Shown here: in pieces, positions 1,241-27,235 of the stretch
Layout: each line of letters opens with the position of its first letter
Position numbering within the stretch: position 1 is the first letter of the stretch
Virus record (IMG/VR): IMGVR_UViG_3300025280_000106
Coordinates: 1 to 31,803 of that record
Length of the DNA: 31,803 bases
From: a virus
Direction: 5' to 3' (one strand)
The notes under the pieces: model-generated
What the model was told of the DNA's origin: nothing
Databases searched by the model: none
The model's input: only the letters and a program-made list of their open reading frames with translations
Made by a program: the position numbers and the translations under genes

Positions 1241-1490
1241 TAGCATGTCTGAACACTGTCCAATGATCAGTAGGGTGTGTGCCATGTGTGGGAAGAGTAA
1301 GTGGAACCCCCCTACACGGTCATACACTGAAGACTCTCGCCTGTTCTGCGGACAGGCACCACCTTCCTTTGATGTTACAGTAGAGAGCCTGCCACAGTGT
1401 CCGCTAGAGATGACAAAAACACAGAAGACAGCTTACTCAAAAAAGATGAAATCCATAGAAAAGAAATTATTCCCAAGGAGATTTACATGA
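1233..1490 (+). CDS. Small Cys-rich, probably zinc-binding protein
   Basis: Encodes 85 residues containing SRVCAMCGKSKW followed by further Cys residues in LFCGQ and LPQCPLE. A CxxC pair plus two spaced Cys is the usual pattern of a small zinc-binding domain. The ATG at 1233 has GAGGG at 1219-1223 and overlaps the end of the gene before it. The C-terminus is Lys-rich. Its TGA overlaps the next ATG as ATGA. The family is not recognised. Confidence 0.6.
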   Translation: MLSSMSEHCPMISRVCAMCGKSKWNPPTRSYTEDSRLFCGQAPPSFDVTVESLPQCPLEMTKTQKTAYSKKMKSIEKKLFPRRFT

Positions 1491-1990
1491 TACAACTGGA
1501 TACAAGAGCAGTAGTATATAGGGCTTACATGGCCGCTATCAAGTCTATTAAGTCAAAGGGTGGAGATGCAAGAAGACCTATAGAAAGATATCATCAACTC
1601 AAAACAAGAGCCAAGGACAACTATCAAATGAAACTATCAGAACAAGACGTAACGCTTTTAAGCAAGATATATCAACTGGCTATACTGCATGCCGATAAGA
1701 AACTCCATGATGATAAGCTGGCTAACCAGATAAGAGCATTAAGAGACAGGTACAATGAGGCCGCTATTAAAGAGAGCACGCCGAAAAAACCCTCTTCCAT
1801 AGTACGATGTCCAGAGCATGACGATCAAGATACTTCATGCCCAGTGTGCTATCCACCAGCGAACGCACTGTCCAATGTACTGGACAAGGAAACACGTGAG
1901 CAAAGGAGCAAGGATATGCAAGAGGCTATTGATAGGGAAACCAATTCTCGTATTGGACAGGCAGGATGTGTAGGTGGTGAGTGTGATTAA
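1487..1990 (+). CDS. Hypothetical protein with C-terminal Cys/His cluster
   Basis: Encodes 167 residues. A longer frame opens at 1397, but the ATG at 1487 is preferred because AAGGAG (1475-1480) lies six bases upstream and the start overlaps the preceding stop as ATGA. The first two thirds are helical and basic. Towards the end, RCPEHDDQDTSCPVCYPP provides three Cys and one His that could bind a metal, and the protein ends GGECD. No family is recognised. It is the last gene before the structured intergenic element. Confidence 0.6.
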   Translation: MIQLDTRAVVYRAYMAAIKSIKSKGGDARRPIERYHQLKTRAKDNYQMKLSEQDVTLLSKIYQLAILHADKKLHDDKLANQIRALRDRYNEAAIKESTPKKPSSIVRCPEHDDQDTSCPVCYPPANALSNVLDKETREQRSKDMQEAIDRETNSRIGQAGCVGGECD

Positions 1991-1993
1991 TTC

Positions 1994-2083
1994 GCAGGGG
2001 TTTCCCCCGCTACCTTATCCTCGATCATTAGTAGATCGGGGTTCGTCTGCCCGCCAAGCAGACATGGCGGGTCTTGCCCCTGC
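1994..2083 (+). other. Highly structured GC-rich element (candidate RNA or terminator)
   Basis: A perfect 7-bp outer stem pairs 1994-2000 (GCAGGGG) with 2077-2083 (CCCCTGC). Inside it, 2019-2026 pairs with 2034-2041 (8 bp with one G-T, 7-base loop). A further stem pairs 2050-2055 with 2066-2071 (CCCGCC/GGCGGG). An alternative stem, 2045-2050 with 2058-2063 (GTCTGC/GCAGAC), excludes that one or could form a pseudoknot with it. ATTATTTTT follows directly. This could be a structured RNA, a terminator or an RNA-processing site. It resembles a cloverleaf but lacks tRNA D- and T-arm sequences. Confidence 0.45.
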
Positions 2084-2092
2084 ATTATTTTT

Positions 2093-2326
2093 GTGAAGTG
2101 TGAACTCTGTAATAAGAACCCCTGTCAATGTGTTGACAGAATACGAAGGAGTATTAAAAAAATGGGCTGGAAAATAGATTTAGAGAATGACTTTGAGAAA
2201 TTGAAGAGTAGGGTAACCAAGCTTGAAAAGATTCTAGAGAGTTTGAATGAAGCGGTTAAGGCTCCCAAGAAAAAGCCTGTAAAAAAGAGGAGACCTAAAG
2301 ACTTAAAGGTAATAGCCGAAGCTTAG
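2093..2326 (+). CDS. Small Cys-knuckle/coiled-coil protein
   Basis: Encodes 77 residues from a GTG start: MKCELCNKNPCQC gives a CxxC-x4-CxC cluster. A helical region (FEKLKSRVTKLEKILESLNEAV), probably a short coiled coil, follows, and then a very basic tail (KKKPVKKRRPK). The GTG has no clear ribosome-binding site. An in-frame ATG at 2162 has AAGGAG at 2146-2151 and would yield a version without the Cys cluster. I favour the longer form because the cluster looks like real protein. It is the last plus-strand gene before the convergent junction. Confidence 0.55.
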   Translation: MKCELCNKNPCQCVDRIRRSIKKMGWKIDLENDFEKLKSRVTKLEKILESLNEAVKAPKKKPVKKRRPKDLKVIAEA

Positions 2327-3614: not shown

Positions 3615-6600
3615 CTACCAATGCCTATCTTCTGGTGCTTTACCGATCTCAGCTCGAACCCTAGTTGCGTCTTTGGGGTGGTTTTTTCTTAACCACTTGA
3701 GGAACTCAGCCCTTCTTTCACGGCTTAACATGACTGTCCACTTGTAATGAAGTGGGTCTCTGTATCTTAAAAGACGATCACGGATAGCATCGAGAGTCTT
3801 ATATCTTTTAGACTGAACCATTTCAGTAATGGCACCGGAAATGTCTCCCTCTTGAATCATCTCATCAAGAACAACATCAATCTCATCACGCTCAAATTTT
3901 ATATCAGAGAGATATTCATTGATCAACTCTCCGGGGCGACCACCAGCGGCACCGTGACGTATCCACGTTCCAAGAAGTGGTGTATATTTTTCATACCAAT
4001 TCCTAACCTCTCCCGGTCTTTCACTAACCTTGAACGGCATTTGTGCTAAGGGAGTAAAGCCTTCCGCCAAGTATCTTAATCTTTTTGCAGACTTAGAATA
4101 CTTCTGCCAGTTAGCTATGGTCAATGGGCGATCTTTTAGTCCTGCGGCCCTAGGAGCAATAGGACGCCTTGACCAGAAAGAATAATTTAAACCCTGCTCT
4201 AGTAATTGCTTTCCAATGGGTGATATCTTATTCCAGAATGTCTGCATAGGCTCTCCGAACCAGCCAAAGTAATCTCGCATGTATCGGAAGAGTGGCATAA
4301 CTATGTATATCTGACGACCTTTATTGTCTTTCATCCCAAGGTCTACATCCAACCTGTGTCCTTCTGGGTTTTCCATAGCCCACCTAGCTTTGTCTGGATC
4401 ATAAGCGTGTTGAAAGCTGGAAGTGCCGGTAGCCAACGCATTTAATCCGTTAGTAAATAGCGCTAATCCCATCACACCCTTTACCAAGTGCTTTATATAC
4501 TCGCCCTGTAGTGCCTTCATTTCAACCTTGCTAAGGCCCTTGTGCCCTAGAAATAAAGCATGCTCGCTCCGGACACCAGCGGCACCAGAAACAAGACGGA
4601 GGTTACTGATCGTCCAGTTTCTTGCAAAAAATAAGCCATTTAAAAAGGCACCGTCTTTGGGAACAAAAACCTCCGCACCAGTGGTACCAAGAAGATCATT
4701 AGTATAGTGACCAGCCATTACCCCTGCACGGTCTGGAGTATGCCCTTTTGCCATCATTTCTGAATACTTCAATGCAAACACAGTTTCCTGTGCACTCTGA
4801 ACGATCCTTCCCCATAAAGCCTTGTCGGCTAACTGTTTAACCGTTTTGACGGGGTGCTTGCCCAAGTTAACCATGGGATTAGCCGTAAGGTCTGGCATAT
4901 TCTCTCTCATATACTCATCTATTTCTGAACCACGTCGTCCAGTAATCTCTTGGTTGACCCCACCCTTAGCCATTGCTCTTTGTAGGTCTTCCAGTGTACC
5001 ATCAAACCCCATCTTCTCATACATCTTCAATTGTTTTTTTGGGCTGTATTTAATACCGGGAAATAACCCTGTCAGCCTAGCGGTTTTAATAAGGGGAAAA
5101 GCATTAGACCAACTGCTGAACCACAGCTCATCAAAGGCATCAGAATAAATGTTCCACCCGTGGATCAGTGGGTTATACATAATAACTCGTTTTATATTGC
5201 CAGACCACTTTTTAAACCATCTGGAACCCACTCTAACTGCCTTTCGTGGAGATTCAGCGGGCGTGATGATGTGTTCAAGCTCTCCCGCTACACGGGGGTC
5301 TACCCAAACTGTACCACCACGTTTTTTACCAGTGACAGTTCTTGCAAAATGGGGGTCGTCCATGCGAGCATATCCCTCCACATACGATTCAGAGATCAAG
5401 CGCTCTCCGGTAGTGTTGTTGGGAAGGTCTTTTATTCTTTGTACAAACCTCTTAGCAGAAGCCGCCTTTCCAATAGAACCCCACCATGTGTCAACCAGAT
5501 AGGGAATGTCATAGATGACCTCAAGATTTGCCTCCTTGGCAAAAGCTTCAGCTTCTGTAGGTGTCTTGAACTTCTTTTCCTTGGCAAACTGAGATTCTGG
5601 ATTGGCGTCTATGTACTTATTGATCGCTTTCCGGATTTCTTTTGGTTCTCCTTTAAACAGACCGGGCCAGTAATGATCTATGGCGTTGTCAATAACACCT
5701 GATTGTTCAGCAAATATTCTCCCAGTTTCAAAAGACTCCTTCCACATATCTAATATTTGCGTTTCTTTTGCAGAGAGGGACTCAGCCACTCCCTTTTCTC
5801 CAGCCGCCGCACGAATGATATCCCTATATCTATCGGGTGTAATTTTTAGCTCTTTGACTTTTTTTCTAAACCGCTCACTCTCATGGAACGAATCTACTAA
5901 GGCAAGCTGATCTCCACGCATTTTTGACCTGATAGTATCCTGCACAGAAAACATTATGTTTTCTGGGACAATGTGAACTTTTGTGCCAGTCTCGTTAGGT
6001 CTGTACACCCCCTGTCGAATATCTTGTTCAACATTGATCTTAGTCTCTTGCTTTCTAAGACGTTCATGTATGTTGTAAAGCTGTTCAGGGGTAGCCTCAG
6101 CAAGAGAAAGTCTTCGTCCGGGCTGGCGTGGAATTTTTTTGTTAATATTCTTTGCCATCTCAGCCCTGTTCATCTTCCTCATTTCAGCCGGGTCAATGCC
6201 ATATCTTTTACCAATCTCAAAAAGCTCTTCTTTTGTCCGGCGTGAGAGGTATTCATAATAAGGAATCTCACCTTCCTTCCTTTCCTGCATGGGTTCTTCC
6301 CTTGCACCCATTTCCTCTCTTTTGAGCTGTTGCTCCTTCTCTGTATTGGATATCTTCATACGCTTCATACGTTGATGAATCTTACCCAGACGATTGGTTC
6401 TTATGGTTTCAGAGTCTTGCGGATTACGACGACGTGTAAAATTCTTATAGAAAGCACCAGCGCTAACTTTAGTTTTTTTCTTCTTGGGTGAGTTTTGATC
6501 CTCCAATACAACAAATCGTTTATTACCCTTGCCAGTTTCTTTGACAACCTGTACACGCCCTCGACCATTACCGTCAGCCTCTAGACCGTATTTAGCGGGG

Positions 6601-12675: not shown

Positions 12676-15518
12676 TAGCTTACCCTCTGGTATATTGGTC
12701 TGTATTCCACTGCCACATCATTGATCTGGACACCTTCTGAACTTCCAGTATCATTCGTAGCGTTCACGATCTTAAATCTTATACTCTGGCAGGATATAGG
12801 ACTACTGGGCTTTGCCCGAACCTGTTTCCAGCCAGAACCCCCGCCAGCGAAGTCACCTGTAAGCTGGTTTGAAAAGCTAGTACCGCCGTCAGTATCATAA
12901 AATATGGGTTGTGTCTGGTCATTATCACTCTTATATGTTAGTGTTACACCATATATTTTCTTTTTCCTACCCGGTTCACCAAAGTCAATATCCTTTGTAG
13001 TGACTACGAACTTGTCCTCTCCCACAGAACGCATGGAATCTGTCCATTCTTTAATCTCGTAGGCATCAGATGTGGAGTTCCAAGTATTGCTTGTCTGTCC
13101 TTCCCATGCTGTGTCAGATGACCAATACAGGTCACCAGTAAGCAATGTCTGGTATACAGATGTAGTATTACTGTTCCAATCTACTACCATGTTGGCCCTA
13201 TTATAGTTATCATCAAATGCTGATTGACCCTTGATCCACGACTGCGTCCTGAAATCATATATATATACATCTCCCGCATCAGCAAAGGCGTTCTTCAGGA
13301 CAATGAGATAATAGCGCCTTGGGTTATACCCGATCAATGTATCACGTCTAAAGTAGGTCTGCCATGTAGATTCCTTGATCCTGTTGAATAAAAGATTTGT
13401 CACGTTTTGACCATCATATAGGTATACACCGAACTTGTTAACCCAGCACACACCAAACTCTGTCTTGGTAGAGGCATAAGGATGTTCAATCCCTACCAAG
13501 TCCTTAATATCCTCAACATACCAGTTGGATGGTGACGGAGAAGCGATATTAATGATATAGAGTTTCCGGTTCTTAAAGGCTAGTAATCGGTCTGAGAACT
13601 CTTCCAGCTTGGTAAACTCCTCAGCATCGCCCTTTACCACATCAATGAAGTAGCTTCTAGGGAACGTATCAAACTTACCGATAGGCGTATACATGATCCG
13701 GTCACGCATCTGAACAGTCTCACTGTCCTCATTTACCGTCTTCATGTTTGCCACAAAGGCACGTCTATTAGCCACTATGGCAGTTTTAAAGCCTTCACCA
13801 GTACCGGAAATGGTTAATTGTTCATTAGCGTCTTTATTAGCCGGGAAGCTATTAAGAATTTCATAAGTCTCAAGGGCTGGGGAAGGAACGATGACTGTAT
13901 CCACTTTCATATTAATACCAGAGTCCACTACCCACGGAGAATATTCACCGCTTAGACTTCCCCTGACGCCATCTCGAAGGCTAATGTCCAACAGCAAAGC
14001 CCACGGATCAGAGGTGGTATTTATTCTAGTATAAATACGAGCACCGGATATCCTTGGATTAAAAGAACCTGCGGAATTAGCATCAGTTAAAGCGGCTCTT
14101 ACATCTATATCAAGAGAATCCAGTGATGTGGCGGCAAAAGTATTGTTAGATGATGGTATGAAAAGGAATGATTCCTGATGGCCATCATATATAAAACTTG
14201 CGGCAATCTGATATGTCTCACTTGCCCACGTACCGGCTGGAGATGTGGGACTTTCAACCTTTAACTTGAATCCAGCTCCAGCTTCAGGATAATTTGAAGC
14301 GTGTATGTCACATTCCGTAGGTGGGGATAGAGTATTATTATCATCGTGCCAATCGTCAAAACCGTAAAATGTCAGAGATACATTATCAAGGTTGAATGCG
14401 GCATTGGTTGACGAGCCTGTAATTCCTATAGTAAAAGCACCAGCCGATGACTTGGTCTTGTAATATATACTTGTCGTAGCGTCTGACATGGTCAAATCTG
14501 TTGAAGTAGCGGCATGGGCTGTTGTGATAGAAGCCTGTAAAGTCGCCGAACTACCAAGATTTAATCCTGACATTGTATATGTAAACTTGTAGATGGCGTT
14601 GGGAATGGTCTCACCTATAGTCATCTCAGCCACTGCCTGAACTAAAGTGGCGGGGCTTGCATGGTGAGCATAGCTTGCATCTGTTGCATCCAGAGTCCAC
14701 CCATTACCTCCTGTCCAATTAGAACTAAAATTGCCCGTATTGGCTAGGTGTTCCATTGATCCGGAGATGTCCTGAAAGGGACGACGATTGATGTAACCGT
14801 ACCACTTATTCTGGATACTGGAACCGAATGCGGCGTCTGAGACCCTGAGAGCTTCATCGGCGAAATAAAATACACCCTGTGTCAATCTGGTAATTGTAAC
14901 ATCACCATCTTCATCGTCCTCGTCAGTAAGTACCCCGCTGTGATCCAAGGTTAATACAAGTTCGGAGACAGTTCTTACACGCAGACCGTTGAAATTGTTA
15001 TTGGTCACATCAGTACAACCCGAGATTCCTATGATGTCACCTTTTCTAAACCCCTGAGTTATAAAATTAACTGAGCCGGCATCTGCTGTAATGGTGTCAT
15101 AACCATCAGCATTGCCAGCAAAAGCCAGTTCATCTGAACTAAAAGCTCCCGAGGTGGATGCCGCACCCATATCAAATATCCCAGACTGAAAAGAATCACT
15201 ACCAAGATCATAAAGATCAACCTCTCCAGTTTTAGAATCAATGACTCCCAACCAGTTCTCACCAGTATCTAGAGCCCTAGGGCCACGTTCATGATCGGAC
15301 TCAAAAATAAAGGCGCCATAGCCGGGACAGATATGTCCAGCCGTCCCACTGGGAACATCAGTATGTGCGGTATCCCCACCCATGGGACGTATAGACTTCC
15401 TATCTTCCAGTATGATATTCTCTACGTCAGACATCTCGTTCTCACCAATGTCACGTGGATCGAGAGCTGAGTTTAGACCACCGGAGAAATCATTAATGTT
15501 ATAAAACGCTTTAGGCAT
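12675..15518 (-). CDS. Large neck/tail structural protein (tail tubular B/beta-propeller type)
   Basis: Encodes 947 residues. The N-terminus, NDFSGGLNSALDPRDIGENE followed by a segment ending RPMGG, matches the FxGGxN...xxxxEx..N...RP(M/G)GG start common to phage neck and tail-tube proteins (T7 gp12, P22 gp10 and relatives). The rest is beta-rich, with many Thr/Ser/Gly strands and repeated YLYDG/VYIYDF-type blades that suggest a propeller. Its start overlaps the endolysin stop by eight bases. It probably forms the tail tube or nozzle. The length is more than that of T7 gp12, so extra domains are likely around residues 250-450. Confidence 0.7.
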   Translation of the reverse strand: MPKAFYNINDFSGGLNSALDPRDIGENEMSDVENIILEDRKSIRPMGGDTAHTDVPSGTAGHICPGYGAFIFESDHERGPRALDTGENWLGVIDSKTGEVDLYDLGSDSFQSGIFDMGAASTSGAFSSDELAFAGNADGYDTITADAGSVNFITQGFRKGDIIGISGCTDVTNNNFNGLRVRTVSELVLTLDHSGVLTDEDDEDGDVTITRLTQGVFYFADEALRVSDAAFGSSIQNKWYGYINRRPFQDISGSMEHLANTGNFSSNWTGGNGWTLDATDASYAHHASPATLVQAVAEMTIGETIPNAIYKFTYTMSGLNLGSSATLQASITTAHAATSTDLTMSDATTSIYYKTKSSAGAFTIGITGSSTNAAFNLDNVSLTFYGFDDWHDDNNTLSPPTECDIHASNYPEAGAGFKLKVESPTSPAGTWASETYQIAASFIYDGHQESFLFIPSSNNTFAATSLDSLDIDVRAALTDANSAGSFNPRISGARIYTRINTTSDPWALLLDISLRDGVRGSLSGEYSPWVVDSGINMKVDTVIVPSPALETYEILNSFPANKDANEQLTISGTGEGFKTAIVANRRAFVANMKTVNEDSETVQMRDRIMYTPIGKFDTFPRSYFIDVVKGDAEEFTKLEEFSDRLLAFKNRKLYIINIASPSPSNWYVEDIKDLVGIEHPYASTKTEFGVCWVNKFGVYLYDGQNVTNLLFNRIKESTWQTYFRRDTLIGYNPRRYYLIVLKNAFADAGDVYIYDFRTQSWIKGQSAFDDNYNRANMVVDWNSNTTSVYQTLLTGDLYWSSDTAWEGQTSNTWNSTSDAYEIKEWTDSMRSVGEDKFVVTTKDIDFGEPGRKKKIYGVTLTYKSDNDQTQPIFYDTDGGTSFSNQLTGDFAGGGSGWKQVRAKPSSPISCQSIRFKIVNATNDTGSSEGVQINDVAVEYRPIYQRVS

Positions 15519-26473: not shown

Positions 26474-27235
26474 TTAAGGCAATCTCCGTGCGTTTGATGC
26501 GTTCATGATCCCGTCCCATACCTGATCCTTTTCGGACTTCGGTCTTGGGGCTTGACCCTGAACAATACCAGCACTTCTTGGAGATTGCTTGTTTGCTCGA
26601 ACAATATCTAAAGACGAAGAAGGCTTCGACCTATCCTCACTTCCATTTGTCTTTAAATACACATCAACAAGCGCCTCGAATGGTAAATCCTCTTTAGGAG
26701 TAGAATAAAACTGTACAAAATCATCAACCATATTGTCGTTGAAATTATAGTTCTCTTTCAAATCCCTTTTAAGGTCATTCATAAACACTTGTTCTTTAAC
26801 AGCACCCATCTGCTGTTGAACCCCACGATTCACCGCTTTCTGCATCTCCTTCTGGACATGCTGATAAGACTCGGAACGGGGGTCGAAAAAGGCCTTCCAA
26901 GGGCTAAACTCGTCTTCAGATATCTTTTTCTGCTGTGCCGTTGCTGGCTGTCCACCGACAATCGCTGTCTGGAGCGTTTGCACCAGATCAGGTCTGCTCT
27001 CCAACAGTTCTATGAGTGGCTCATATTTTCCCATTTCCTTGTTTTTAGCGACCTCACGGTCGTACATGGACTGGAACTTTCTGGCCTCTGTGTCATAGTC
27101 TGAACTTGAAAAGTCAGTTTCTCCTGTCTCATCACCAGCGTACTGATAATCAGAACCTGTGTCGGCAACCTGCCCGGCATTCACGTCTGTGATTCCCGAA
27201 TACTCAGTTGCTTCTTGTGTAGTTGCCTCTGCCAT
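26474..27235 (-). CDS. Scaffolding protein
   Basis: Encodes 253 residues directly before the major capsid gene. It is acidic at the N-terminus (Thr/Asp/Glu-rich) with a helical, charged middle (RKFQSMYDREVAKNKEMGKY; YQHVQKEMQKAVNRGVQQQM) and a Pro/Ser-rich C-terminus. These properties and the position between portal and capsid are typical of a scaffold, although such proteins have little sequence conservation. GGAGG overlaps the stop of a tiny preceding gene. Confidence 0.78.
   Translation of the reverse strand: MAEATTQEATEYSGITDVNAGQVADTGSDYQYAGDETGETDFSSSDYDTEARKFQSMYDREVAKNKEMGKYEPLIELLESRPDLVQTLQTAIVGGQPATAQQKKISEDEFSPWKAFFDPRSESYQHVQKEMQKAVNRGVQQQMGAVKEQVFMNDLKRDLKENYNFNDNMVDDFVQFYSTPKEDLPFEALVDVYLKTNGSEDRSKPSSSLDIVRANKQSPRSAGIVQGQAPRPKSEKDQVWDGIMNASNARRLP

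Follow-up and report, generated by a model that had tools for sequence, protein, structure and literature searches.

The window analysed here, the whole of one virus record (31,803 bases), is an uncultured tailed-phage contig whose leftward genes match phage families for the terminase large subunit, portal, major head protein, tail spike and endolysin, and whose rightward genes (1-2326) include one for a putative phage PD-(D/E)XK endonuclease (788-1240; Pfam PF24579, E 5.6e-31). The rightward and leftward modules converge at ~2326/2338, and the nuclease-containing rightward transcript is probably early. Within the rightward module a structured element lies between two genes (Table 1), for neither of which a relative was found among 50,697 named phage records. 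The ATG of the upstream gene is a likelier start than its GTG; it forms an ATGA overlap with the stop of the 1233-1490 gene, has a GGAG upstream, and its counterpart is where the homologue in a relative, G011, begins. For the downstream ORF, GTG 2093 is uncertain as a start codon, and ATG 2162 is the alternative. Between these two codons are 69 bases with four differences between the window and G011, three of them at third positions, which mildly favours coding there. A perfect 7-bp hairpin (CTGTCAA-TGTG-TTGACAG, 2122-2139), also kept in G011, sits just 5' of the Shine-Dalgarno of ATG 2162. The end of the downstream gene is only 11 nt from the oncoming gene, and no terminator-like site was flagged there.

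On the plus strand, positions 1991-2092 fold into a closed three-way junction made of P1 (8 bp), a 4x4 internal loop, P2 (5-7 bp; ensemble probability 0.77-1.0) and the hairpins P3 (8 bp) and P4 (6 bp), followed by a U-run whose DNA form at 2084-2092 is ATTATTTTT. P1 pairs GCAGGGG (1994-2000) with CCCCTGC (2077-2083) over 7 bp, or 8 bp counting U2001-G2076. An earlier note on this DNA had placed all of its listed stems, the 102-nt gap (1991-2092) and the tail correctly, and had missed the inner stem P2. The minimum-energy fold of 1984-2100 reached -48.2 kcal/mol (z -5.07), with none of 200 shuffles equally stable. Folding stability alone does not single the element out in the window, its nearest frame ranking fifth of 1586 (110-nt frames, step 40, both strands, 30 shuffles each), and conservation of the fold in diverged relatives is stronger evidence than stability. 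Two frames had a lower z than the element's own frame (about -5.6, 30 shuffles), 15041-15150 (+) and 26481-26590 (-), the latter just upstream of the major head protein gene.

Table 1. Coordinates of the element, its parts and the flanking genes in the window.
Feature	Position	Strand	Evidence and remarks
Upstream gene	1487..1990	+	ATG 1487, GGAG before (sequence reading); mechanical ORF listing starts from GTG 1397
Whole element, branched RNA and U-run	1991..2092	+	Fold, model matches in relatives, pair counts
P1 5' arm, GCAGGGGU (segment A, 1994-2000)	1994..2001	+	Partner 2076-2083; identical in all three alleles
P2 5' arm, CCCGCUA (overlaps segment B, 2004-2010)	2006..2012	+	Fold; in G002 2/5 core pairs changed on both sides
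Hairpin P3 (2019-2026/2034-2041, one G-U)	2019..2041	+	5/8 pairs changed on both sides
Hairpin P4 (2045-2050/2058-2063; GTCTGC/GCAGAC)	2045..2063	+	4/6 pairs changed on both sides
P2 3' arm, UGGCGGG (segment C, 2067-2071)	2065..2071	+	Fold; two distal (inner) pairs lost in G011
P1 3' arm, GCCCCUGC (segment D, 2077-2083)	2076..2083	+	Sole P1 change: U-G to U-A in G011
U-run, AUUAUUUUU	2084..2092	+	Sequence reading; no gap after P1; AUUUUUUU in G002
Downstream ORF	2093..2326	+	Start GTG 2093 (no Shine-Dalgarno seen) or ATG 2162 (GAAGGAG at 2145-2151, sequence reading)

IMG/VR protein searches led to 12 records, each of which was searched whole with a model of the element, and four of them carry it (G012, G011, G001 and G002). 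Over 5,987 bases G012 matches the window at 99.98% identity, and in G001 the element is cut by the contig end, the 69 bases present being identical to G011 (70.2 bits as a cut-off match; 13.5-16.1 bits in whole-record searches). Counting the window, five records hold three distinct alleles, those of the window, G011 and G002. A model (R1) derived from the window and G011 alleles alone detected the G002 copy, which it had not seen, with 48.0 bits (E 3e-11). Comparison of G001 with G011 (contigs L014 and L003) showed the element and some neighbours to be 93-100% identical, with strong differences in the large neighbouring protein and the small-ORF end, a mosaicism that suggests recent exchange of the element block. 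Whole-record searches of the other eight records (G003-G010) with R1 or R2 gave no match; these are more distant (28-38% identity in the leading protein, or reached via a small piece or another gene), many are fragments, and only G008 clearly retains part of the gene neighbourhood, with plain terminator-like hairpins in place of the element.

Exact pattern scans of viral contigs returned seven stretches, one of them the element (L007, the contig of G012), and in a second scan 13, two of them the element (L007, and L045 from G002), and the remaining stretches folded differently; the first scan missed the contig of G011 despite the pattern being there. Genome contigs yielded nothing in the pattern scan and no relatives among 305 candidate stretches in the protein scan. 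Using blastn, one search of phages gave six short matches at E 6, judged to be chance, another gave none, and plasmids gave none. The 202-kb virus contig L050 matched R1 with 29.9 and 24.0 bits and was dropped, these matches falling on both strands of tandem GGGG..CCCC palindromes (2771-2870), and L043 (15.3 bits, E 0.084) was dropped likewise. The Rfam comparison proposed by the earlier note (Rfam 15, 4227 families) gave no match in the window at curated/gathering thresholds, and at E up to 10 only far sub-threshold matches in the window and the G002 copy. ARAGORN detected no tRNA or tmRNA genes, and a literature search returned no description that we recognised as the element in those parts of the sources that were accessible.

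Folded separately, the three alleles gave the same topology (z -5.96, -6.56 and -4.85), with none of 500 shuffles equally stable in each. Complement-strand folds were weaker (z -4.12, -5.07 and -3.19), and we assigned the element to the plus strand because of this and because of the G-U pairs in the plus-strand fold. The interiors alone, between segments B and C, were less striking, with 15, 3 and 38 per 1000 shuffles as stable. Pairs were counted on a model-fitted alignment (A7), chosen because the MAFFT alignments A4 and A8 misplace P3 by one base in some alleles; the counts use three of the five records, G012 being left out as a copy of the window and G001 as cut off. Compensatory change, on whose absence in relatives the earlier note would have given up the stems, is present, with 96.3% of 81 cells pairing and 11 of 27 pairs changed on both sides, numbers that lean upward as the alignment was fitted to the structure and has three rows only. 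None of 500 shuffles reached any of five pairing measures on this alignment, and sliding the partner by 1-3 columns lowered pairing to 33-49%. A hand count, for which P3 was moved by -1 in the G011 allele and by +1 in that of G002, classed 58 cells as 36 the same, seven changed on one side, ten changed on both sides and five broken, all five at inner helix ends. P1 and the flanks of the internal loop are nearly invariant, and P3 and P4 hold most of the double changes. The bases at P2's inner end and on into the junction that precedes P3 (window 2010-2016; L003 4593-4598; L035 3362-3357 (-)) are CUCCUU in G011 and G002 and CUACCUU in the window; CUCCUU is anti-Shine-Dalgarno-like, with its first C paired in P2. 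The element is a real conserved structured RNA with no Rfam family, and its structure and strand are well supported.

Two other pairings were evaluated. The earlier note had taken 2050-2055 (CCCGCC)/2066-2071 (GGCGGG) and 2045-2050/2058-2063, which overlap at 2050, for mutually exclusive GC stems resembling a switch or pseudoknot. As a switch they are not supported: the second of these stems is P4, kept with double changes in all alleles, and the first is disfavoured. It competes with P2 for one 3' strand, forcing it in the window costs 6.8 kcal/mol, and in G011, which could still form five of its six pairs, two of them G-U, forcing these five costs 16 kcal/mol; its pair probability is 4e-5 at most. 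It does form on the predicted folding path of the window sequence, as an intermediate at 82 nt. Segment A (GCAGGGG) can also pair with segment B (CCCCCGC) nearby downstream, and for the first 20 to 75 bases of every allele this A-B hairpin is what folding predicts. Forced in whole molecules, A-B is 9.4 to 12.9 kcal/mol less stable, and would therefore be only a folding intermediate, or be held by, for example, a ribosome. P1 may not drift because A has to fit both B and D.

The element travels with the gene before it. This upstream gene is kept beside it both in G011, with 75% identity, and in G002, with 64% over residues 77-155, and each lineage with a sequenced upstream side has one copy behind that same gene. 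The next gene is the 2093-2326 ORF in the window, G011 and G001. In G002 a 72-aa ORF and others come next, and the 2093-2326 homologue lies about 1 kb further along. With the upstream gene kept and the downstream one replaced in G002, the element is more plausibly the end of the upstream transcript than a leader for the gene that follows.

We therefore favour, at about even confidence, a branched, terminator-like 3' element that would end a rightward phage transcript, a reading that draws directly on the fold, its strand, its conservation, its position behind the upstream gene and the U-run. In different lineages the G/C-rich P1 is directly followed by a U-run of one or the other sequence. As polymerase leaves the upstream gene, P3 and P4 would fold, then P2 and P1 would zip, and the G/C-rich 8-bp P1 would close as the U-run is made, acting as the hairpin of an intrinsic terminator, with the P2-P4 cap in place of the usual short loop; released transcripts would get a very stable 3' end. 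If not a terminator, the structure would at least form and protect that end. On the plus strand the sole terminator-like site flagged between 508 and 2533 overlaps the element (2067-2083), and the G011 copy was also flagged (4649-4667). A weak hairpin at 2067-2083 (5 bp, 7-nt loop, -5.2 kcal/mol alone) is an alternative in the window and G011 and is unflagged in G002, where the scan flagged a hairpin with a U-rich tail just downstream of the element (3264-3241). The U-run is modest: 6.5% of all window positions reach its score there of 2.19, and for the 2.85 of the G002 copy the share is 2.2%. The scan also showed no general enrichment of terminator-like sites (18 against 14.0 +/- 4.3 expected). 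Same-strand genes follow the element, one in the window and four in G002, and termination would thus be only partial at most. Furthermore, a plain terminator does not need the invariant sequence of P1, which counts against this reading. The short distance from the stop codon to P1 (3 or 12 nt) counts against it too, given the ribosomal repression of such nearby terminators in E. coli described below. The earlier note had proposed a multi-stem element that could be a terminator, and this is supported by covariation on the plus strand, the lack of an Rfam match and the U-run right after P1, with termination itself as an inference.

Comparison with known systems gives partial likenesses. As in intrinsic (Rho-independent) terminators, a G/C-rich stem is followed immediately by a U-run at a gene end; unlike in these, the stem of the stable fold closes a branched 74-85 nt cap where a short loop (3-8 nt) is usual, although the weak alternative hairpin at 2067-2083 would have such a loop, the U-run is modest, and the P1 sequence is nearly invariant across lineages. 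The phage lambda sib/tI retroregulator, downstream of int, is similarly a structured 3' element behind a phage gene and tied to the upstream and not the downstream gene; it differs in being a hairpin that RNase III cuts in readthrough transcripts, which lowers the upstream mRNA. Phi29-type packaging RNA shares a three-way junction and an end-joining helix, but the present element has no loop-loop complementarity by eye and no Rfam match. The L17 downstream element (Rfam RF01708) is, in the accessible text of PMC2864571, likewise a conserved structured RNA of a presumed 3' UTR with its strand taken from G-U pairs; it differs in that its gene encodes a ribosomal protein, in Lactobacillales and Listeria, and in having an Rfam family.

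Two alternatives, a small RNA in its own right and a leader for the downstream gene, are less likely than a terminator-like 3' element. The first, which we consider rather unlikely, would be a discrete phage RNA of about 95 nt that ends by cleavage or termination at the U-run and either targets host or phage RNA in trans or binds a protein via the invariant P1 and internal loop. The closed stable fold with its U-run would suit such an RNA, as would a P1 and internal-loop flanks that hardly change while P3 and P4 drift freely, but the constancy of P1 is also explained by its dual pairing. Furthermore, no exposed loop sequence is common to the three alleles by eye, and no sigma-70-like promoter was flagged on the plus strand from 191 to 2998, in a scan for that promoter class only.

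A 5' leader or attenuator of the downstream ORF, the regulator of the GTG gene that the earlier note had suggested, is disfavoured and in our view improbable. The nine nt of the U-run separate P1 from GTG 2093 in the window, G011 and the partly sequenced G001, and the CUCCUU or CUACCUU between P2 and P3 could, as read from the sequence, meet a Shine-Dalgarno; however, a riboswitch or leader would be kept with the same downstream gene, and G002 keeps the element before a different one.

About as doubtful, and the boldest of the readings, is a translation-sensing branched terminator, which would account for a P1 that stays frozen while P3 and P4 drift and in which the stable fold (A-D with B-C) would compete with the first-forming A-B hairpin and a ribosome at the stop codon would decide between them. 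P1 starts 3 nt after the stop codon in the window and G011 and 12 nt after it in G002. In E. coli, according to the accessible text of PMC4824070, a ribosome represses a terminator that starts within about 27 nt of the stop codon, and termination at the element might therefore depend on translation of the upstream gene. A ribosome finishing this gene would hold A and block P1, so that polymerase continues; without translation P1 would form and transcription would stop. With the cap in between, the U-run would lie some 93-113 nt beyond the stop codon.

A purely translational element, whose fold would bring the stop codon near the GTG for re-initiation or allow ribosome bypass or readthrough of the stop, is very unlikely. 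The 102-nt gap is in frame and stop-free in the window and G011, and P1 would put stop and GTG within about 12 nt, but a second of the three frames is open as well in both alleles, so that openness is weak evidence; the translated gap is also unlike a conserved protein, no matching take-off and landing codons are seen by eye, and G002 has no following GTG and a 12-nt spacer. Finally, a chance stable fold or functionless mobile palindrome, which the modest stability rank and the GGGG...CCCC palindromes found elsewhere would allow, is scarcely credible against the double-sided pair changes and the single copy behind the same gene per lineage.

Regulation by structured RNA domains in 3' UTRs is described as highly unusual in bacteria (PMC2864571, accessible text). 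If the element stops transcription, it would be an intrinsic terminator whose loop became a branched domain, and it would offer a small testable case of a possible link between translation of the last codon and termination in a phage. For this uncultured phage group the element is an additional small RNA family, one not present in Rfam 15 as searched.
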